NCBI GenBank assembly: GCA_023251075.1
Contig: JAHEZM010000028.1
Span: 1-48,179 of the forward strand
Reading direction: 5' to 3'
DNA: 48,179 nucleotides
Origin: Flavobacteriales bacterium
GTDB lineage: Bacteria > Bacteroidota > Bacteroidia > Flavobacteriales_C > GCA-002722245
Shown here: positions 6,385 through 48,179 of the stretch, piece by piece
Position numbering within the stretch: the first letter of the stretch is position 1
Layout: each line of letters opens with the position of its first letter
Program-made: the position numbers and the translations under genes
The notes under the pieces: model-generated
The model's database searches: none
The model's input: only the letters and a program-made list of their open reading frames with translations
What the model was told of the DNA's origin: nothing

Positions 6385-6470
6385 AAATTACCTTTAAAAA
6401 CGTTCCTCTTTTTTAACAAGAATTAGAGGAAAACAAAAAGAAAATAAAGTGTTTTTATGAAAGCAACCCT

Positions 6471-6478
6471 TAAATTTG
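6471..6478 (+). promoter_or_regulatory. Promoter -7 box for the 64-residue protein gene
   Basis: TAAATTTG is an exact TAnnTTTG match 33 bases upstream of the ATG at 6512. It implies that the small gene is transcribed separately from the thiamine operon. No clear TTTG -33 box accompanies it. Confidence 0.5.
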
Positions 6479-6511
6479 CATCTCGTCTTAACACAAAATA
6501 ATTGAGTAATC

Positions 6512-6706
6512 ATGGTGATTAGAACAATAGAACAACACGTAAATGCCTTAGACCAGGTAAGAGATTGGTTGAAACGTGAAGATTACTCTCTAGAGAGTAT
6601 GAAGGAGATAGATGGCGTGATGAGAGCTATAGAAGACTACTCAGGTATGCCTCTTCCTGCAAGGAGCTTTATTACAGCAAAAGTATTTTCGAGAATGGCA
6701 GTTTAG
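6512..6706 (+). CDS. Small hypothetical protein (64 aa)
   Basis: I do not recognise this 64-residue protein. It has no signal peptide or membrane segment. The composition is charged and helical, with an Arg/Asp/Glu-rich central part and the sequence GMPLPARSF near the end. Support for its being real comes from an exact -7 promoter box at 6471-6478 and an ATG start at a sensible distance. Its stop codon interlocks with that of the convergent gene on the other strand (overlap 6703-6706). Confidence 0.6.
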   Translation: MVIRTIEQHVNALDQVRDWLKREDYSLESMKEIDGVMRAIEDYSGMPLPARSFITAKVFSRMAV

Positions 6707-7642: not shown

Positions 7643-9790
7643 TTAAAATACAATTTTTATAGTTTCAACACCACTTTCATTAATGATTTTAACATAGTAA
7701 ATTCCCGAACTTTTTTCATGAACGAGTTGTTCGAGCGGTATTTTATAGGAAGCCTGACCATTTAGTTTTACTGATTCTCCTATTATTTTACCGAGAGCAT
7801 CATAAATTTCAATTACAAAGAAAGAGGACTGGTTACCTGAAATATCAAGTACAGAACTTTCATTGGCCGGATTGGGATAGATAGAACTTCCGAAATTAAG
7901 AGTATTGACATCACTAATTCCCACATGATCATGATAAAAATTAACATTATCCAAATAGAATTTATTTCCTCTCAAAGCACTAACAGCAAACATAATTCGG
8001 AAATCCGATTGTCCGGCTCCCTTAGAACTCAAATCAATTTCCTTATAACCCCATTCTGAAATAGAAGGAATGTATTCTGTAGTTACATTGGTGTTTTTAG
8101 TATCGATTTGACTATTCGACATAGTAGTACTCAATTGCCAGCCAATACCACAGTTTCTTAAATATAAAACACGTAAATAATCGTTACTGTAGTTATCTAC
8201 CTGAGCGTAAGCGTAATTGAAGCTCAAATAAATAGAATCGGTGAAGGAGCTCAGATTGAAATTCGGACTAATTAATAGGTGCCACAACTCTTTATCCTTA
8301 TTGCTACCTAGGCCTATCAGTCCGCTTTCGGTATTTAAATTTACTTCTAAAGAAGCAGAACCTGTTTTTCGGGTAACAGTGGTTCTTTTAAATTTTTCGC
8401 TTCCGGGGGAATAAAGAATCCATTCGTTTTCACTTCCTGGAATTTCAGGAAAAGAGGCATTTTCAAAACCTTCAAAAAAATGAGCTGTAGTATCAACGCT
8501 GGTGCTGAGTATTAAAATATAATTGCTTTTTTTCAAGGTATCTCTGCCAGCACTATTACTTACAATTAATTGAACATCGAAAATACCAGCGGTATTGTAG
8601 GTAATGATGGGATTTATATCGGTAGATGAAGAAGGTGTTCCTCCAGGAAATGACCACTCGAATACTCTGTTCGTAGAGAGGCTATCGTTGTAGCTTAGGT
8701 CTAAAAAATGAACGGTGCTACCTTCACAATATATAGTTGAATCTATTGCAGGATAAGAAGCTGTACTTGTTCTAAAATCAGCTATTGGCGCGTATTCGTT
8801 TACTGTATGATTGTCTTCGGTACCGGTTGCAATTAGGTTCGAATTCAAATACAATTTATTTCTATCTCCAGCAGCACTGGTTAAAGCTGAAATCATTACC
8901 GCTTTCTGACCTTCGGTGAACATATTGCTGCAACTTCCATAATCCATAAAATTCTGAACATTTTCCAATGAACCACAACCATTCTGATTTAACACGCATG
9001 TACCGGAAGAACCTTTGGTGGGAGGGGTGTCGGAAATATAGTCGGATCCATTGCAGTTGGCTCCCACAGTACCCAGTCCCCAGGTATGGTATAAACCAAG
9101 AAAATGGCCTGTTTCATGTGATAGGGTATGGTTTGCTGATGGGGTGCCGTAGGAAGTACCTATGCTACCAAATGAACGATTGATAGCTATTGTTCCTTCA
9201 TGGCTAGGAGAAGGAGCTGTTCCGGGAATGTAGCTGTATGCCCCAATTCCAGATCCCAGGTAATTTACCACCCATATGTTGTAATATTTTTTGGTGTCCC
9301 AGCTAATCAGATCTTTTACTTCCTCTCCTTTTGCCGAATTGGTTTTGTAGGAAAAGGTTCGCGTAATTCCTTTGGTACCTTTTCCATCCGGATCAATGGT
9401 AGCCAGTCGAAATTCAATACCAATATTTGCAGCAATAGATTTAAACTGAGATACAATACTTGAGGTATCGGCATTACTTTTATTAAAATCCTCATTCAAG
9501 ATGCGAATAGCATCGTACACTTGTGCGTCGGAAATATTTGAAACTCCATAATCGTGAACAATATGTACTACAACAGGAACTATATAAGTTGCATTATTGC
9601 CGCTTAGCGTTTGAGTGCTGTTGAGTTGCAGGTTTTGCAGAAAACTATTGTGTAAATCGATTTGTTTCTTTTTTGCAGGATCATTTTTAATCATCTCTTC
9701 CATAATATGATCAAAACCACAAGGTTGAGCCACTAATTTCGTGAGAGATAGAATAGTAAATAGGACAATAATAACTGAACGGTTTCCCAT
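7643..9790 (-). CDS. Secreted M43 (pappalysin/cytophagalysin) metalloprotease with PKD domain and T9SS type A signal
   Basis: A 715-residue extracellular zinc protease. It starts with a signal peptide (MGNRSVIIVLFTILSLTKLV). The zinc motif is H225-E226-x2-H229-x2-G232-x2-H235, with a Met-turn near Met282 (NFMDYGSC), as in the M43 family. A PKD-like domain follows at about residues 335-430 (WSFPGGTPSSSTDINPIITY), then a jelly-roll-like carbohydrate or lectin-type stretch. The last 75 or so residues (YPNPANESS...GIYYVKI) are a type A T9SS sorting domain. The protein should be exported across the outer membrane and released or attached at the surface. It is probably monocistronic. Confidence 0.93.
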   Translation of the reverse strand: MGNRSVIIVLFTILSLTKLVAQPCGFDHIMEEMIKNDPAKKKQIDLHNSFLQNLQLNSTQTLSGNNATYIVPVVVHIVHDYGVSNISDAQVYDAIRILNEDFNKSNADTSSIVSQFKSIAANIGIEFRLATIDPDGKGTKGITRTFSYKTNSAKGEEVKDLISWDTKKYYNIWVVNYLGSGIGAYSYIPGTAPSPSHEGTIAINRSFGSIGTSYGTPSANHTLSHETGHFLGLYHTWGLGTVGANCNGSDYISDTPPTKGSSGTCVLNQNGCGSLENVQNFMDYGSCSNMFTEGQKAVMISALTSAAGDRNKLYLNSNLIATGTEDNHTVNEYAPIADFRTSTASYPAIDSTIYCEGSTVHFLDLSYNDSLSTNRVFEWSFPGGTPSSSTDINPIITYNTAGIFDVQLIVSNSAGRDTLKKSNYILILSTSVDTTAHFFEGFENASFPEIPGSENEWILYSPGSEKFKRTTVTRKTGSASLEVNLNTESGLIGLGSNKDKELWHLLISPNFNLSSFTDSIYLSFNYAYAQVDNYSNDYLRVLYLRNCGIGWQLSTTMSNSQIDTKNTNVTTEYIPSISEWGYKEIDLSSKGAGQSDFRIMFAVSALRGNKFYLDNVNFYHDHVGISDVNTLNFGSSIYPNPANESSVLDISGNQSSFFVIEIYDALGKIIGESVKLNGQASYKIPLEQLVHEKSSGIYYVKIINESGVETIKIVF

Positions 9791-13998: not shown

Positions 13999-14643
13999 TT
14001 ATCTGGTTAAAGTAAATTTTCCTCGATAGGTAAAAGTTTTTCCTGTTTCTAAAGTTCCTTTTACCACATATTTGTAGGTTCCGCTTTGAACAGGTTTTCC
14101 GTCGAATGTTCCATCCCAACCAGTGCTAAGTGAATAGCTGGTGAACAACAATACATTATCGATAGAATAAACTTCGATGGTAATACTTTTAACACCATAA
14201 CCAATGGGCACCCATGTATCTTGATTCCAATCATTATTGGGTGAAAAAGCGCTAGGTATAACATCAATAGAGGCAGCACAGGAGTATACATTAATGTAAT
14301 GAGTATCTGCAACTCCATATTTAGAAGCTATTACAGCGAAAACTCCGGGTTCAGCAATTTTAATATAGGGTTCTGAAGAACGTTTAACGAGTTGATTGAG
14401 GTCATTTCTTTTGCTCCAGGAAATGGAATCAATCGAGCTTGCATAAGTTAGTTGAAGATCATTGTTTTCAAAAAAACAAGTTGAAAGATATTTGCTGCTA
14501 TCGAGATTGATGATACATTGTTTGGTGGTTGGTTTGAAATTCGGATCAACACCCTCTTCGTACATATCGAGTTCATCTCTGTGATGACAACCAGAGATAA
14601 TTAAGATGCCCGCAACCAGAAAATATAGTGAGTTACGTAACAT
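13999..14643 (-). CDS. Lipoprotein with Ig-like domain and T9SS type B C-terminal domain
   Basis: 214 residues. The signal peptide ends in a lipobox (IISGC, Cys19) and is followed by HHRDE, which loosely resembles the basic-acidic surface-export tag of Bacteroidota lipoproteins. Residues 40-120 look like a small Ig-like fold. Residues 125-214 are a type B T9SS/gliding-associated domain (PSAFSPNNDWNQDTWVPIG, then GWDGTFDGKPVQSGTYKYVV). It starts on the last base of the anti-sigma::PorP gene. Type B domains normally pair with PorP/SprF-like barrels, so it is the likely extracellular partner of that protein. Lipidation plus a type B domain in one small protein is unusual. Confidence 0.82.
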   Translation of the reverse strand: MLRNSLYFLVAGILIISGCHHRDELDMYEEGVDPNFKPTTKQCIINLDSSKYLSTCFFENNDLQLTYASSIDSISWSKRNDLNQLVKRSSEPYIKIAEPGVFAVIASKYGVADTHYINVYSCAASIDVIPSAFSPNNDWNQDTWVPIGYGVKSITIEVYSIDNVLLFTSYSLSTGWDGTFDGKPVQSGTYKYVVKGTLETGKTFTYRGKFTLTR

Positions 14644-16538
14644 TATAAGTTACTTGGGTTAATAGTTTTGCCGAACATGTATTTTACGCCTGCACTTACA
14701 AAACCTTCTCTGTCCGCATCAGAGTAACGAATATTCTCATCTACTAAAATTCCACCATTTAAATGGAATCTTAATTTATCGGCAATGTTAATGCCTGCAG
14801 TAAATGCTGCATAATTCGAATTCTCTACAGATACACCAGCAAAAATTCTGTTTTTATAAGTGAACATAGTACCTGCTGTATAAATGGGAGTAATTTCAGA
14901 AGTTCTTTTACCATAAATGGTAGCGGTAAACTTTTTAGAGAATGGAATATTGATACCAGCAGTAAGAGCATTGTTTTTAGTTAACTCCGGACGTTTATTC
15001 AATGATGTTTGAAACAAGTTATTGAAACTTGCACCCGCAAAAAATAAAGGATGATTGAACCAAATACCAGCATTGTAGTTGATATACTTTTCGCCAGTCT
15101 CAACAGATTTGTCGTTAGTAGTAATCAATCCGCCGCCTTCTCCTTCTTTCCAATAATTTACATTTTTCGCATCCAATGCATTGGTGCAATGTGTAGCGCC
15201 CACACCCAATCGAATAGAGCTTAATTTGCTTATTTTTTGGTTCATCGATAAGCTGATATTCACTTTACGGGATTCCCAGTCATTGTTGATGGTGTTTTGA
15301 AAATAAGAACCGATAGCAAATTTCTTATCGCTACCTAATGCAACATCTCCTGCAACATAAAGACTTGATGGATCATGCCAGTTCAATACCTTTTCTTGTG
15401 AGTTTCTCAACCAGGCATCAGTCCAGAAAGAAGAATACATTACTTTTACACCTGCTCTCGCTTCTACTCCGGCAATAGCAGGATTTTCATTTAAATTATT
15501 TAAAACTGATGCGGGCAAACTAGAGGGAAGGGTAAGGTATTTTAAAACCTTATCATCAATATTTTCCCAGTTTGCGGCCACCACATTTCCTAATTGTTCC
15601 TGGTTGGTATTAAGTTCTTTGCCATAAGCATTGAAGGAAAGTAATTTTTCCTCTGCTGTTTCATTCTGAACTTCATAAACTGGCAGGTACAATTTGGTAT
15701 CCGGAGTTTGATTTCCCTCTTTATTAAAATCCTTTTTGTATTTCTTATTACTTATTCCTTTGTGTGTAGAGTTAACAAATTCTCTGTTTTGATTTTCGAT
15801 ATTGTTAGGCAATACAACCTTATTTTGTTTTTCATGAGTGTTAGAAGGAGGGGTTATGAATCCTCTTTTTTCACTACGGGCAATATTTTCTTCTTTTGTT
15901 GAATTGTTATTTTTCCCGGTTTGTTGAGTTTCATTGTAATGTCCTACAATAGCGTAACTAACCCAACCAAACAACAATATGGCAGCAGCAGCACTTAATT
16001 TTTTCCAATTGAAGAAAGCTCCTTTTTTCGAATTTTCTCCATTTAGCATTTGTTCCATTCGATTCCAATGTTGTGGATTGTATGGAACTTCTGTACTATT
16101 TAGAACTTCTCTGGATTTAACTTCAAAAGCAGGAGTAGCATCCAACTGATTTACAATCTCAGTCCAATGCTCAGGTTTGTAAGAAACATTGCCATTTTCC
16201 AGTTTTTCCTTTACTGCTTTTTCAAAATGGGTAGGTTGATCTAACTGAGAACTAATCGCATCCCAATGTGGCATGTTAAAAGCTACGGTTTCACCTTCCA
16301 GTTTATCGCGTAATCCTTTTTCAAAAGGAGTTAAAGAAGGACTCATTTCTTTTTCGAAAGATTTCCAGGCATTGGCAGGCATCGCAACATCAGCACTTTC
16401 TAAAATAGACTTAACCTTCTCCTCAAAAGGGGAAGGTTTAACGGAGTCTAATCTGGCTTTCATTTGTTCCCAATGTTGGGGATTGAAAGGGATTTCCTCG
16501 CCGTCTAAAATATTTTTTATGTTGTCGTCTGATGCCAT
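14643..16538 (-). CDS. Anti-sigma-like protein fused to a PorP/SprF-like outer-membrane barrel
   Basis: 631 residues. Residues 1-170 form five repeats of 33-35 residues, each with a V-x-(F/Y)-(N/K)-P-x-H-W type core; the tryptophans are 23, 58, 92, 125 and 158. The WxxMxxxLD pattern resembles Bacteroidota anti-sigma N-termini. One membrane helix follows (about 179-199). Residues 200-345 are a polar periplasmic linker. Residues 350-625 look like a PorP/SprF barrel (ENPAIAGVEARAGVKVMYSSFW, then alternating strands ending GVKYMFGK). The gene is one base from the ECF sigma gene and overlaps the type B lipoprotein gene by one base. The layout suggests one chain spanning both membranes that transmits a surface signal to the sigma factor. 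Domain calls are from pattern only. Confidence 0.8.
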   Translation of the reverse strand: MASDDNIKNILDGEEIPFNPQHWEQMKARLDSVKPSPFEEKVKSILESADVAMPANAWKSFEKEMSPSLTPFEKGLRDKLEGETVAFNMPHWDAISSQLDQPTHFEKAVKEKLENGNVSYKPEHWTEIVNQLDATPAFEVKSREVLNSTEVPYNPQHWNRMEQMLNGENSKKGAFFNWKKLSAAAAILLFGWVSYAIVGHYNETQQTGKNNNSTKEENIARSEKRGFITPPSNTHEKQNKVVLPNNIENQNREFVNSTHKGISNKKYKKDFNKEGNQTPDTKLYLPVYEVQNETAEEKLLSFNAYGKELNTNQEQLGNVVAANWENIDDKVLKYLTLPSSLPASVLNNLNENPAIAGVEARAGVKVMYSSFWTDAWLRNSQEKVLNWHDPSSLYVAGDVALGSDKKFAIGSYFQNTINNDWESRKVNISLSMNQKISKLSSIRLGVGATHCTNALDAKNVNYWKEGEGGGLITTNDKSVETGEKYINYNAGIWFNHPLFFAGASFNNLFQTSLNKRPELTKNNALTAGINIPFSKKFTATIYGKRTSEITPIYTAGTMFTYKNRIFAGVSVENSNYAAFTAGINIADKLRFHLNGGILVDENIRYSDADREGFVSAGVKYMFGKTINPSNL

Positions 16539-16539
16539 T

Positions 16540-17115
16540 TTATCTGCCGTTTGCCACAGCTATTTTATCGCTTAAAAGTTTTTTTAAATTCATTTTTGCC
16601 TTTGCCAAATTCGATTTTGAAGTACCCACACTAATATTCAGCATTTCAGCAATTTCATTGTGTTGATATCCGTCAACCACATATAAGTTGAACACTTGCT
16701 TGTAGGCAGGAGAGAGGTTTTGAACACATTTTAATAATTCATCATAACTTACATTGTTCAACAACGAATCACTTTCGTCTTCATCATTGCCACTCATGGT
16801 ATCAGAATGACGGTCATTCAGTTCTACCATGTTGTTATTTACTTTATTGCGACGAATATGATCAATGGCAGTATTCACCATAATTCTCCTGATCCATCCT
16901 TCAAATGAACCCTTATCTCCATATTTGTGGATATTGTTAAAAACCTTGATAAAAGCCTCCTGAAAAATATCCAATGCTTCATCATTGTCTTTAGCATATC
17001 TTCTGCATACAGCCATCATTTTGCCGTAGAACATTTCATACAGCTTTTGTTGGCTTCGACGGTCGCCCTCTATGCAACCTCGAATGATTATAGCGTTATC
17101 AATTACAATACCCAT
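16540..17115 (-). CDS. ECF-type RNA polymerase sigma factor
   Basis: 191 residues. Region 2 spans about residues 25-95 (AKDNDEALDIFQEAFIKVFNNI, then GSFEGWIRRIMVNTAIDHIRR). Region 4 spans about 125-180 (LSPAYKQVFNLYVVDGYQHNEIAEML, NISVGTSKSNLAKAK). The linker is acidic and Ser/Asp-rich. It lies one base upstream of the anti-sigma::PorP gene, the usual arrangement for an ECF sigma and its regulator. A near-match -7 box (TAAAGTTG, minus strand, 17141-17148) precedes it. Target promoters cannot be told from this window; autoregulation is possible. Confidence 0.95.
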   Translation of the reverse strand: MGIVIDNAIIIRGCIEGDRRSQQKLYEMFYGKMMAVCRRYAKDNDEALDIFQEAFIKVFNNIHKYGDKGSFEGWIRRIMVNTAIDHIRRNKVNNNMVELNDRHSDTMSGNDEDESDSLLNNVSYDELLKCVQNLSPAYKQVFNLYVVDGYQHNEIAEMLNISVGTSKSNLAKAKMNLKKLLSDKIAVANGR

Positions 17116-17250
17116 TAAATACAGCTTAAAATTAAGACGACAACTTTAGCAAAGGGTTGCTTTCCCTAAGTAAATTTGTTGATTTAGCTACCAATTTATT
17201 AAAATGTTTCCAAGTTCGCTACCTTTTTAAGTGTTTAATCTTATTATCCT

Positions 17251-18040: not shown

Positions 18041-18082
18041 GTGCCCATTACTTCTTTAGTAGCTTTCTTAAAACAAGAAACT

Positions 18083-21000
18083 ATGAAGGACTTAAGATTA
18101 ATTATGCTTTTGTTGGTGATTTTTATTTCCTTCGAAATTAAATCACAAATTTGTCCGGCGCCCAATCAATGGCAATGGCTTACTCATTCCAAATGGTTTT
18201 ATGGTGAAGGCAATCTGATGACGTTCCCGGGGGGTACTGGCTCTCCTACAGCAGGTACTGTTCCAGGCAGTTTGTTGTGGGATCAGGGTACCTACGAATC
18301 TTGTGCATCGGTATGTGATAGCACAGGTGCTTTGCTTTTTTTTACCAATGGCAAGTACTTAATGGATAAGAATGGAAATTCGATTGCTTCAAATTTATTA
18401 ACAGGAAATGAAGGGGGAGCTCAAAGGGGTAGTGCAGTGCAAGGGGTAATGATTGTTAAACATCCTTTGAACAGAACCGACTATTATATTTTTACTACTG
18501 ATGATGCATTAACTGCTACCGATCGCGGTTTAAATTATTTTATATACAATAGTACTTCCAATACTGTGTCGGGTCCTACACGTATTGGTTCTTATCGTGT
18601 TACAGAACAATTGGCTGCTACATGGCATGCAAACGGAGTGGATATTTGGATTTCATTTCATCAAAGTGGAACTCCTAATTTATCGTCTGTATTATTAAAA
18701 TGTACAGGTATTAGTGGTGCGCCAGTAGTCTCTAATAATGTAGTTTTAAATGCATCACTCCGAACGGATAACGAACGCTCTTGTTTGAAATTTTCTTGGG
18801 ATGGAACCAAGGCTGCTGCTACTGCACATTTAGGAAGTGGGAGCTGGACTACCCCTTCCGATGCTTTGGTATTGTTAAATTTTAATAGTGCATCAGGATC
18901 TTTTACCAAGAGCTGTGCTTTTGGTGATGGTTCTTTTACCGATCCTTATGCTTGTGAATTTTCTACCGACAATGCCTATTTGTATATCACTGCTGTTACC
19001 ACGGCAACCACTTACAGATATTCTATGGCAAGTTGGGGAAATGGAGGAGCAATTGCGGGTACTAAAACATCTATTTCTTCTCAGGGTATTGCCGGCCATT
19101 TAAAAGTAGGAGGTGATGGAAGAATGTATAAAGCAGGAGATGGGAAATTAGGAACAATTACAGGAACTGCTTACACTGCAAATCCTGTTAATTCTTCAAA
19201 AACAGTTACCTATTCTTTGCCCAATATGTTTGTTCCTCCAATGGATAAATTAGATATTCAACCTATAGGACCATTTTGTCAATTTGATGCACCTGTTGAT
19301 TTGTCGGTAAAATGGAAATGTAAAAATACCAATGCAGAAGATCCAATCAATTATCCAACAGCATGGAGTGGTCCCGGTATAACCAATGCTGCTACAGGAA
19401 TATTTAATCCTAAAATTGCTGGGCCCGGAGAGCACATAATAAAATACACCTTATGTACGGTTGCTGATACCCTGCATATTATAGTGAAGAAAAAACCAAA
19501 TGTTGTACTCGCCAATAAAACCATTTGTAATACCGATCCTGCCACAACATTTGATGCCGGCGCTGGTTATACTTCTTATGCATGGAGTGCTAATGGAACA
19601 GGAACCAGTAGAACAACCAGCGGATTGGCGCCCGGAAATTATACGGTGATGGTTGATTCACTAGGTTGTAAAGATACTGCTACCGCCGTATTAACTGTGA
19701 ATACTTGTGTCATCACTTGTTTAGATACAACACTAAAAAATCCTAACGCTCTTTGCTTACTTCAAACCTTAGATTTGAATACTTTAAAAACAAGCACAAC
19801 GTCGCCAGGTGTTTGGAGTGTTACAGGATCGGGTGCTGGATGGCCAACGATTACAGGAACAACTTTTTCTACTTCATTAATTACTGCACCTGGAAATTAT
19901 ACGGTGAGGTTTACATTGAATCCTGCACCAACCGATGTCTCTTGTGCAAAATTCAGTGAAAGAATTATTACGGTTAAAGCTTTGGCTGAGCCTGTTATAA
20001 CTTCATTTGGCCCGTTGTGCAGCGATTCTGTTTTAGTAACAATGGCAGCCGATTTACCGGGTGGATTATGGTATTTGCAAAAAAATTCTACCGGTGCATT
20101 CAATGCTGAATTAACCGGAAAATTTGATCCAACCGTTATGGGAGCTGGCACACACAAAGTAATGTATGTTGCAATGGGATTGAATGGTTGTCCGGGAGAT
20201 GATACTATTTCTGTAATTGTGAATCCAAGAAAAAATGCAACTATTACTGCTGTGGGACCCTATTGTGCAAACAATCCATCGGTTAATTTACAGGCCGTGA
20301 GTGCTGGTGGTGTGTGGACTGGAAATGGAATTACAAATCCAAATTCAGGCACATTTAATCCATCCAATGCCGGTGCAGGAGATCATGTAATTACCTACAC
20401 TCTCGCTGGTGCATGTGGAGATGTTAAAACAACCACTATTCATGTTGATCCGGTGCGTGATGCAACGATTTCTCCCAGAAATCAAACACTATGTGTTTTA
20501 GATCCTGCTGTTACTATTAACGCCGCTGAAAGTGGTGGAACGTGGACTCTCCAATTGAAATCCGGAGGTGCCGTTACCAACTTGGGAAATACACAAACTT
20601 TAAGTTTTAATCCCGCTAACTATGCCGCAGGATTGTATCAATTAATCTATTCAATAGCTAATCCTTGTGGTGATAAAGATACGATTGAAATTACTGTGAT
20701 CTCACAATTTGATGCAACCATCAATACAGCAAAAACTTTGATTTGCGAAACAGAAGCTCCCTTTACTATTAATTCTGTAATGCCGGGTGGAACATGGACT
20801 TCCTCTTGCGGAGCATGTATTAGCAATGGTATTTTTAGTCCAGCTTTAGCAAATGCGGGTGTAAATACAATTACCTATTCTTATCCTGGTGGATGTGGTG
20901 ATTCGAAAACTATAAATATTGATGTGAAGAAAAAACCAGTGATTGTTTTTTCTCCTTTTCCTCCATTGTGTAAAGGTGATGCATTGTTAGATTTAAAACC

Positions 21001-22174
21001 TTTTGCAAGTCCCGATACCGGAATCTGGTCGGGAACAAACGTAAATGCCGGAAAATTTAATCCTGTTTCAGGTGGTACAGTAACTTTAACTTATGAGATT
21101 TCCGGAGTTTGTAGTGTTTCTAAAACGGCCGACATTTTTGTAAATGTAAAACCTAATCCGATTATTTCCGGCCCAACCTCTGTATGTGGAAATTTGCCGG
21201 GATTACAATTAAGTGTAGATAAAACAGGAGGGATATGGGTAGGTTCAGGAATAAATTCTACAGGGTATTTTTCTACTACAAATTTAGCAGCAGGAATTTA
21301 CAATATTGAATATCAAATGAACGCTGCTCAGTGTCCCGATACTGCAAAATATACGGTTGAGATCTTAAATGTTCCTCTTACTGATTTTGTTGCAGATACT
21401 ACCCAAGGATGTATTCCTTTAACAGTTAAATTCACTGATGTTTCCAGCGAAATACCGGTAAGTTCAATTTGGAATCCAACCGATAATATTCAGGATTTAA
21501 GAAGGGGTACTATTACTTATTTATATACCACAGCCGGTTCTTTTAATGTTACTTTAAAAAACACTTACGCCAATGGTTGTGTTAGTAGTATCACTAAAAA
21601 CAATTACATCACTACTTATGCCATCCCCAAAGCAGAGTTTTATTCTACTCCCGATTTGGTAAGTATAATCAATCCGCAAGTGAGTTTTATCAATCAATCT
21701 TCAAGTGATGTAACACATTGGAATTGGGATTTTACAGCGAAAGGTTCTCCAGCCATTTCTATCAAAGAAAATGTGGAGGTGATTTTTTCGTCAACGGAAG
21801 ATGATACTATTAAAGTGTGGTTAGTGGTGGATAATGGACAATGTTTCGATTCCATTTCACACCATGTAATTATCAGAGAAGTTACCACCCTGTTTGTTGC
21901 CAATGCTTTTACACCTAATGGTGATGGAATCAATGATGTTTTTATTCCGAAGGGAATTAATAATTCTGATAAGGGCTATGAGTTTTTGATTTTCGATCGT
22001 TGGGGTGAATTAATTTTTAGAACAACCAATGCTTCTGAAGGATGGAATGGAAAACGCGATAACAATATGCGCGAAGCACAAATAGATACCTATGTTTGGA
22101 AAGTAGTTTATGTGGATCATTTCACAGAAACAAAAGCCGATCCGATGGTGGGTATAGTGAACTTGATTAGATAA
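18083..22174 (+). CDS. Large secreted adhesin-like protein with Ig-like repeats, PKD domains and T9SS type B domain
   Basis: 1363 residues. A signal peptide (MKDLRLIMLLLVIFISFEIKS) precedes a roughly 380-residue region resembling a beta-propeller (repeated LLFFTNG, YYIFTTDD and SCLKFSWDGTK patterns). About eight Ig-like modules of 75-85 residues follow, each with GGxWxGxGI and GxFxPxxAGxGxxxIxYT-type cores. Two PKD-like domains are next (CIPLTVKFTDVSS, VTHWNWDF). The last 90 or so residues (VANAFTPNGDGINDVFIPKG, FDRWGELIF) form a type B T9SS domain. It should be displayed on the cell surface. No PorP/SprF gene adjoins it. ATG 18083 is chosen over an upstream GTG because it starts the signal peptide. 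Confidence 0.93.
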   Translation: MKDLRLIMLLLVIFISFEIKSQICPAPNQWQWLTHSKWFYGEGNLMTFPGGTGSPTAGTVPGSLLWDQGTYESCASVCDSTGALLFFTNGKYLMDKNGNSIASNLLTGNEGGAQRGSAVQGVMIVKHPLNRTDYYIFTTDDALTATDRGLNYFIYNSTSNTVSGPTRIGSYRVTEQLAATWHANGVDIWISFHQSGTPNLSSVLLKCTGISGAPVVSNNVVLNASLRTDNERSCLKFSWDGTKAAATAHLGSGSWTTPSDALVLLNFNSASGSFTKSCAFGDGSFTDPYACEFSTDNAYLYITAVTTATTYRYSMASWGNGGAIAGTKTSISSQGIAGHLKVGGDGRMYKAGDGKLGTITGTAYTANPVNSSKTVTYSLPNMFVPPMDKLDIQPIGPFCQFDAPVDLSVKWKCKNTNAEDPINYPTAWSGPGITNAATGIFNPKIAGPGEHIIKYTLCTVADTLHIIVKKKPNVVLANKTICNTDPATTFDAGAGYTSYAWSANGTGTSRTTSGLAPGNYTVMVDSLGCKDTATAVLTVNTCVITCLDTTLKNPNALCLLQTLDLNTLKTSTTSPGVWSVTGSGAGWPTITGTTFSTSLITAPGNYTVRFTLNPAPTDVSCAKFSERIITVKALAEPVITSFGPLCSDSVLVTMAADLPGGLWYLQKNSTGAFNAELTGKFDPTVMGAGTHKVMYVAMGLNGCPGDDTISVIVNPRKNATITAVGPYCANNPSVNLQAVSAGGVWTGNGITNPNSGTFNPSNAGAGDHVITYTLAGACGDVKTTTIHVDPVRDATISPRNQTLCVLDPAVTINAAESGGTWTLQLKSGGAVTNLGNTQTLSFNPANYAAGLYQLIYSIANPCGDKDTIEITVISQFDATINTAKTLICETEAPFTINSVMPGGTWTSSCGACISNGIFSPALANAGVNTITYSYPGGCGDSKTINIDVKKKPVIVFSPFPPLCKGDALLDLKPFASPDTGIWSGTNVNAGKFNPVSGGTVTLTYEISGVCSVSKTADIFVNVKPNPIISGPTSVCGNLPGLQLSVDKTGGIWVGSGINSTGYFSTTNLAAGIYNIEYQMNAAQCPDTAKYTVEILNVPLTDFVADTTQGCIPLTVKFTDVSSEIPVSSIWNPTDNIQDLRRGTITYLYTTAGSFNVTLKNTYANGCVSSITKNNYITTYAIPKAEFYSTPDLVSIINPQVSFINQSSSDVTHWNWDFTAKGSPAISIKENVEVIFSSTEDDTIKVWLVVDNGQCFDSISHHVIIREVTTLFVANAFTPNGDGINDVFIPKGINNSDKGYEFLIFDRWGELIFRTTNASEGWNGKRDNNMREAQIDTYVWKVVYVDHFTETKADPMVGIVNLIR

Positions 22175-47625: not shown

Positions 47626-48179
47626 TTCTCGCTCCAAAGGTATGCACCCCTTGAAAGGGGTTGGTATCGCGGTATGAATAGTCGAAACCAAACGATGCTT
47701 TGTCTTTGTAAGGTACTTCCACGGTGAATCCTAAAGTAGGTCCCGTAAAAGCCGTAGTTCTGGTGCTCATTTTGAAAATTCCCTGCTCATAAACATAGCC
47801 TGTTCTTAACATGAATATTTTTTTAAAGCGATATTCCAGGCCTACGCAGTATTGATCTTTGCTAAAGGCATTAGAAACAAAAGTTGCCGAGGTGAATAGC
47901 TGGTGTTGCGTGCCTAAATCGAAACGATAATGCCCACCAATATTCATTAAAAGAGGTAGTTCAAAAGATTGTGATTTCGATGCCAGTGTTACCTGTTTAT
48001 CGCTTCCTACGAAAAGTGCTTTGGTAGATAATCCGTCACCTGAATAAGACATTTTCGGACCGGCATTTCTTAAAGCCATTCCAAATCCAATGTGTTTTCT
48101 ACTGCCTGTGGTATATTGTATTCCGGCGTCTAATGCCATGCCCAAACCTTGTATGTTTGCTATAGATTCAGATACAATT
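47615..48179 (-). CDS. PorV/PorQ-family outer-membrane barrel protein, 5' end outside window
   Basis: About 188 residues are visible; the frame stays open to the window's right edge, so the N-terminus and signal peptide are missing. The visible part is a beta-barrel with ALDAGIQYTTG, IGFGMALRNAGPKMSY, GLEYRFKKIFMLRTGYVYEQ and a closing FDYSYRDTNPFQGVHTFGARICF, the pattern of PorV/PorQ-type proteins. PorV is the T9SS shuttle that carries cargo to the sortase. Whether this is true PorV or a paralogue cannot be told from the fragment. Confidence 0.8.
   Translation of the reverse strand, partial: IVSESIANIQGLGMALDAGIQYTTGSRKHIGFGMALRNAGPKMSYSGDGLSTKALFVGSDKQVTLASKSQSFELPLLMNIGGHYRFDLGTQHQLFTSATFVSNAFSKDQYCVGLEYRFKKIFMLRTGYVYEQGIFKMSTRTTAFTGPTLGFTVEVPYKDKASFGFDYSYRDTNPFQGVHTFGARICF

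Follow-up and report, generated by a model that had tools for sequence, protein, structure and literature searches.

Can an extracytoplasmic function (ECF) sigma factor be governed from the cell surface by a single protein chain that ends in a barrel of the type IX secretion system (T9SS)? This question is raised by three genes on the minus strand of a 48,179-nucleotide stretch of DNA (hereafter the window; Flavobacteriales bacterium, GenBank assembly GCA_023251075.1, contig JAHEZM010000028.1), where they occupy nt 13999–17115. In order of transcription, the first encodes a sigma factor, the second an anti-sigma candidate that has a PorP/SprF barrel fused to it, and the third a lipoprotein with a type B T9SS domain. 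We consider it somewhat probable that the locus is a transenvelope anti-sigma system of the Dma type, as described in Bacteroides, built on T9SS type B parts.

Three abutting genes and their products

The stop codon of the sigma gene (TAA) and the ATG of the middle gene are separated by a 1-base gap, and the middle and lipoprotein genes overlap by 1 base (TAATG), exactly as a sequence-only reading of the window had described. That reading had also taken the first product for an ECF sigma, divided the middle protein into a tryptophan-repeat N-terminus, one membrane helix, a polar linker and a PorP/SprF-like barrel, and ended the third in a type B domain; profile searches and structure prediction bore out all of these assignments. 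The Pfam profiles Sigma70_r2 and r4_2 match the sigma factor with 66.3 and 53.3 bits, respectively. The C-terminus of the middle protein (residues 347–591) matches PF11751 (PorP_SprF) with 70.7 bits against a cut-off of 22.3. NCBIfam TIGR03519 gives 74 bits (E 1e-20), under its cut-off of 90.55, a value exceeded by the homologue in a genome of another family, G306 (126.5; G and L numbers denote genomes and loci).

A model of the full-length middle protein was made with AlphaFold2 (AF2) from an alignment of 7 sequences (mean predicted local distance difference test score, pLDDT, 48.7). As the earlier reading had expected, it contains a barrel, of 14 strands between residues 363 and 621, with block-mean pLDDT values of up to 89 and a weak loop near 455–481. 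When aligned by structure, the modelled barrel (residues 342–626) resembles FadL (Z 23.4) and the T9SS shuttle PorV bound to a cargo domain (8gl6_F; Z 22.8, root-mean-square deviation 3.0 over 240 residues); a PDB sequence search with the middle protein returned nothing significant. Ahead of the barrel, the model shows five helical hairpins of low confidence, then a long single helix at about residues 178–210 and disorder up to about residue 340. The residues N, K, E, S, T, Q and D make up 59% of positions 201–345. This linker is poorly conserved among relatives and shows no obvious conserved cleavage site. The architecture is supported as one that fits both membranes, and we infer that the protein is anchored in both at once.

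The N-terminal part of the window protein consists of five units of about 34 residues, each marked by a tryptophan (W23, W58, W92, W125, W158), while each of six complete relatives has four. Their position suggests that these W-motif units bind the sigma factor. In anti-sigmas of another group, which end in a type B domain (C-terminal domain or CTD class, described below), the whole cytosolic part is only 42–59 residues long with a single W motif (31 of 31 examined), and hhalign (E 3.5e-10) shows this part to be homologous to the beginning of the window protein. One unit is for this reason probably a minimal domain for binding sigma, of which the window protein has a tandem array.

The lipoprotein matches the type B sorting domain TIGR04131 with 45.5 bits (cut-off 35). 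Its lipobox cysteine, Cys19, is kept in every one of the 8 aligned relatives, and Cys56 and Cys122 are also invariant. In the AF2 model an immunoglobulin (Ig)-like beta domain (residues 41–121) precedes the type B domain, which is predicted with confidence (pLDDT 90–98).

Conservation and related arrangements

The trio, in identical order and with abutting genes, occurs in seven further genomes of the family (G001–G007, that of G003 having scaffold gaps within the middle gene) and in the distant G306. The sigma gene adjoins the middle gene in 8/8 family genomes, the window's own included, plus G306; two family members without the trio are only 74–77% complete. Conservation in G001–G007 and G306 confirms that the trio is a real arrangement and not a product of chance. 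The earlier expectation that sigma and type B neighbours would accompany the same domain order also stood, both being kept in homologues. Close relatives of the barrel that are not fused (G156, G094 and G054; L109–L111) carry a signal peptide and have a type B lipoprotein directly downstream, with no adjoining sigma in 3/3 testable cases (the contig of a further genome, G212, stops too early to judge). Since unfused barrels keep the lipoprotein with no sigma alongside, the presence of a sigma follows that of the anti-sigma part, and the lipoprotein follows the barrel.

Sigma sequences are 79–87% identical inside the genus and 61–66% identical to those of the sister genus. In the sigma tree the seven family sequences form one clade (100/99), and this joins the sigmas of CTD-class anti-sigmas at 95/79, just under the starred level. 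The G306 sigma branches elsewhere, at a position that is unsure because its branch is long. Metagenome-assembled genomes named Chryseobacterium gleum, Chitinophaga pinensis and Candidatus Kuenenia (L128, L145, L136, L169) clash with their placement in this tree and are probably mislabelled.

A sigma-based scan of named genomes yielded 77 loci with a readable sigma, and in 33 of them the adjacent anti-sigma ends in a type B domain, examples being those of Cryomorpha ignava, Lishizhenia tianjinensis, Brumimicrobium and Fluviicola. Other adjacent anti-sigmas were short (26), long with other C-termini (13) or a PorP fusion (1). Pfam CHU_C scores 40.7 and 40.2 bits on the two CTD-class proteins tested (cut-off 27), and TIGR04131 scores 47.6 on L064 and, just under its cut-off of 35, 31.9 on L063 and 32.1 on L139. 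Candidates for this widespread class are adjacent to a sigma, have a single helix, come mostly from Flavobacteriales and often lie beside mdh (L063, L064, L068–L076, L129–L171 and others; an example is L139:6533–7795, plus strand). Residues 62–214 of the window lipoprotein, Ig-like domain included, are homologous to the CTD-class ectodomain (hhalign E 4.9e-14), and because of this homology the window system can be read as one in which a CTD-class ectodomain is freed as a lipoprotein and the anti-sigma carries the receptor barrel instead.

The family also has a second sigma/anti-sigma-PorP fusion, with a distinct N-terminus and a distantly related sigma, in 8/8 genomes (L115:3165–5323, in the region of G000 contig C44:73165–75323; L280–L287; L300–L305). 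An ordinary PorP gene follows it in 7/8 genomes, and a type B protein of 1082–1777 residues lies nearby in 5/6 loci read at length; no such protein is present near the fusion in the window's own genome. Together, this second fusion and the CTD class strengthen the link of anti-sigmas to the T9SS.

Promoter motif and candidate regulon

The motif GCAACC-N15-CGTC, which resembles an ECF-type promoter, lies 45–46 nt ahead of the sigma start in 5/5 genus members. The spacing is equal in 2/3 sister-genus genomes, where the surroundings are not alignable, and the third has a weaker match. Its conservation supports a predicted autoregulation of the sigma operon. A scan of six genomes found 27 sites, of which 23 are non-coding and 20 directly precede an open reading frame (ORF), while a reversed-pattern control gave 16 analysable sites, none of them non-coding or directly before an ORF. 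A regulon defined by the strict motif count alone was rejected; total counts are near the reversed control in most genus genomes, and for that reason position and orthology were used instead.

By these measures, two targets have the motif in 5/5 genus genomes: the sigma operon itself and a lipoprotein of about 260 residues (L209, L212, L216, L217, L232) that has no Pfam match and is of no known family. The latter is a candidate for the main regulon member, although one of its five sites was dropped by the coding test, a longer ORF start covering the site. Orthologous sites were also found before a second ECF sigma (2 genomes), another lipoprotein (2 genomes), and a putatively RimP-like gene (3 genomes). 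A protein of 64 residues is a target in 2 genomes, namely as the window ORF at nt 6512–6706 (plus strand; motif at 6463), which has no Pfam match, and as its ortholog in G001.

A similar motif, AAC-N16-CGT, lies ahead of the sigma in 37/56 CTD-class loci, against a mean of 3.4 and a maximum of 8 after shuffling; where the anti-sigma has another long C-terminus, N17 is favoured (15/44 loci). The two sets of loci share some genomes, and their counts are not all independent. In G127, a CTD-class genome, the motif precedes the sigma operon, two type B proteins of 1115 residues and further secreted proteins of large size; in G388 it lies before an operon that encodes two type B proteins. The sigma promoter is the only place where the strict motif is found in G041 and G276. 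Four loci (L130, L131, L133, L136) have the same motif before a sigma that is followed by a short anti-sigma, lacking both barrel and type B domain, and then by a separate PorP, with no clear gene in the gap between these two. In Flavobacterium psychrophilum, the ECF sigma/anti-sigma pair THC0290_1774/1773 belongs to a CGT-box promoter class shared with the T9SS genes porU and gldN (PMC9723704); it is possibly a CTD-class system, a lead only.

Features of the locus, with positions given in the window
Feature	Position (nt)	Strand	Evidence
ECF sigma factor, 191 aa	16540..17115	-	Sigma70_r2 and r4_2 profile matches
Anti-sigma candidate fused to PorP/SprF barrel, 631 aa, Dma-like	14643..16538	-	PF11751; kept in 7 family relatives
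Lipoprotein, Ig-like domain and type B T9SS C-terminal domain, 214 aa	13999..14643	-	TIGR04131; AF2
Five tandem W-motif units, putative sigma-binding repeats, residues 1-176	16011..16538	-	W positions; AF2 hairpins
Membrane helix, residues 178-210	15909..16007	-	Hydrophobic maximum at 181; AF2 helix
Disordered polar linker, residues 211-340	15519..15908	-	AF2 pLDDT mostly 24-35
14-strand PorP/SprF barrel, residues 341-626	14661..15518	-	AF2 strands 363-621; PorV match
Type B C-terminal domain, residues 123-214 of lipoprotein	14002..14277	-	Profiles, AF2, hhalign
ECF-type promoter GCAACC-N15-CGTC ahead of sigma	17136..17160	-	Conserved in genus
Second window copy of motif GCAACC-N15-CGTC	6463..6487	+	Orthologous site in G001 (L218)

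Near the trio lies a gene for a type B T9SS protein of 1377 residues (nt 18041–22174, plus strand; TIGR04131, 49.9 bits), with a methyltransferase gene (PF05430) between the two. The window further carries an M43-type metalloprotease with a PKD domain and a type A T9SS signal (nt 7643–9790, minus strand) and, at its end, a partial and weak PorP/SprF match (nt 47669–48109, minus strand; 20.4 bits, under the cut-off). SprA is encoded in the genome.

Known systems and a proposed model of the switch

Dma1, Dma2 and Dma3 of Bacteroides thetaiotaomicron share with the window protein an N-terminal anti-sigma region (putative in the window protein), one membrane helix, a long disordered tether and a C-terminal barrel; they too are encoded beside an ECF sigma, and the Dma2 operon also has three genes (PMC13088901). 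They are described as spanning from the outer membrane to the cytosol, and they regulate vesiculation in Bacteroides (PMC13088901). The window system differs in having a PorP/SprF barrel rather than OMP_b-brl, five tandem units, and an adjacent type B lipoprotein. The Dma sigmas are ECF21; Pfam profiles place the window sigma in the ECF family. The comparison uses published descriptions and the Bacteroidales barrel anti-sigmas found in the current study; the loci with OMP_b-brl barrels have the W motif and membrane helix in common with the window protein (hhalign E 4.4e-5).

Pairs such as SprF-SprB, Fjoh_3951-Fjoh_3952 and PorP-PG1035 likewise combine a 14-strand PorP/SprF barrel with a type B partner (PMC9143113, PMC12618676), but in the window the barrel is fused to an anti-sigma and a membrane anchor, the cargo is a small lipoprotein, and the gene order is barrel then cargo. 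In the PorA-PorXY-SigP pathway of Porphyromonas gingivalis, an ECF sigma acts downstream of a surface protein whose C-terminus is a T9SS domain, as is proposed here (PMC7712824), but the pathway works via a two-component system and without a barrel-fused anti-sigma. The FecI-FecR-FecA system also has an outer-membrane barrel and an inner-membrane anti-sigma controlling an ECF sigma; in the window, however, barrel and anti-sigma are one chain and the putative ligand is a co-encoded type B lipoprotein. None of the three abutting genes encodes a TonB-dependent receptor, the outer-membrane part being the fused PorP/SprF barrel. The locus had earlier been cast as an alternative to FecIR-type signalling made from T9SS parts. 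Of that proposal, the anti-sigma/PorP fusion linked to a sigma and a type B protein stands, but the spanning design is not new, as two-membrane anti-sigmas are the described Dma class (PMC13088901). What is new here is therefore the T9SS barrel with its adjacent type B partner. A limited search, outside the founding Dma and main ECF classification papers, found no description of anti-sigmas that have a T9SS barrel or a type B domain at the C-terminus.

In the mechanism proposed here, one or more of the five W-motif units would tether the sigma factor to the inner membrane. The chain to which these units belong would cross this membrane once, span the periplasm via about 130 disordered residues and form a barrel in the outer membrane at its far end. 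The co-encoded lipoprotein is the likely cognate ligand of the barrel at the surface, since the PorP/SprF proteins described so far bind type B proteins or export them, and these are often encoded next door (PMC9143113, PMC12618676); we infer binding between the two. A filled barrel would keep the anti-sigma stable (off). If the lipoprotein were lost or undelivered, the anti-sigma would be exposed to release or proteolysis, and the freed sigma (on) would activate its own operon and a few surface-protein genes until the barrel was refilled, giving a self-limiting loop. Provided that such coupling exists, we would give this direction of the switch an even chance; the opposite sign may hold instead. 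A precedent for the direction is that TonB transducers can shield an anti-sigma from proteolysis when there is no signal (PMC11637429).

Several observations weigh against this mechanism. A lipid anchor and a type B domain are an unusual combination in one protein, and PorA of P. gingivalis gets to the surface without the T9SS (PMC7712824). None of the anti-sigma families described in Pfam is recognised in the N-terminal units, and the confidence of the full-length model is low. The candidate regulon in the window genus includes lipoproteins and a second ECF sigma but not T9SS machinery, and the same motif may be used by other ECF sigmas.

The barrel could instead simply anchor the anti-sigma and report the state of the outer membrane or of barrel assembly, its PorP origin being incidental and the lipoprotein an accessory. 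This we regard as rather unlikely, even though Dma proteins with other barrels regulate vesiculation, many of the relatives found here carry OMP_b-brl barrels and have no type B neighbour, and the window-genus candidate regulon comprises mainly surface lipoproteins; the barrel keeps its lipoprotein neighbour even at loci that lack a sigma (L109–L111), and anti-sigmas are found fused to type B parts repeatedly and in more than one form. Sensor, barrel and cargo all lie within the putatively autoregulated operon, and the motif precedes type B and large secreted proteins in G127 and a two-type-B operon in G388, as might be expected if the barrel truly shuttled the lipoprotein and the fused anti-sigma only matched operon expression to load, with no outside signal. 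Such pure secretion feedback is improbable, however, given a window-genus regulon that appears to reach genes beyond the operon and strict motifs confined to the sigma promoter in G041 and G276.

A further reading, and a very improbable one, is that the two membranes are never spanned simultaneously: the helix would be a cleaved anchor, the barrel would be freed in maturation, and sigma release would report processing. Unfused homologues do have an ordinary signal peptide where the anti-sigma part would be (L108), and the linker is long and disordered, but no conserved cleavage site is evident in it and Dma is described as reaching from the outer membrane to the cytosol (PMC13088901).

If the Dma-type reading with T9SS type B parts is right, it bears on two open questions: by what means cells sense and regulate type B secretion, and which factors control most ECF sigmas of Bacteroidota. 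In a survey, known class I anti-sigma domains were found beside only 6% of Bacteroidetes ECFs (PMC7406223). Whether Bacteroidota have repeatedly wired ECF sigmas to type B recognition, through anti-sigmas ending in a PorP/SprF barrel or a type B domain, such that the filling of a shuttle with cargo sets transcription without TonB or a kinase, seems to us evenly balanced. With these findings the Dma architecture would no longer be confined to gut Bacteroides but would reach bacteria that have a T9SS, and a stretch of about 34 residues emerges as a possible minimal unit for sigma binding that can be repeated. Fusions of anti-sigmas to a T9SS barrel or type B signal point to a concrete and testable input for these regulators, namely shuttle occupancy or type B secretion.

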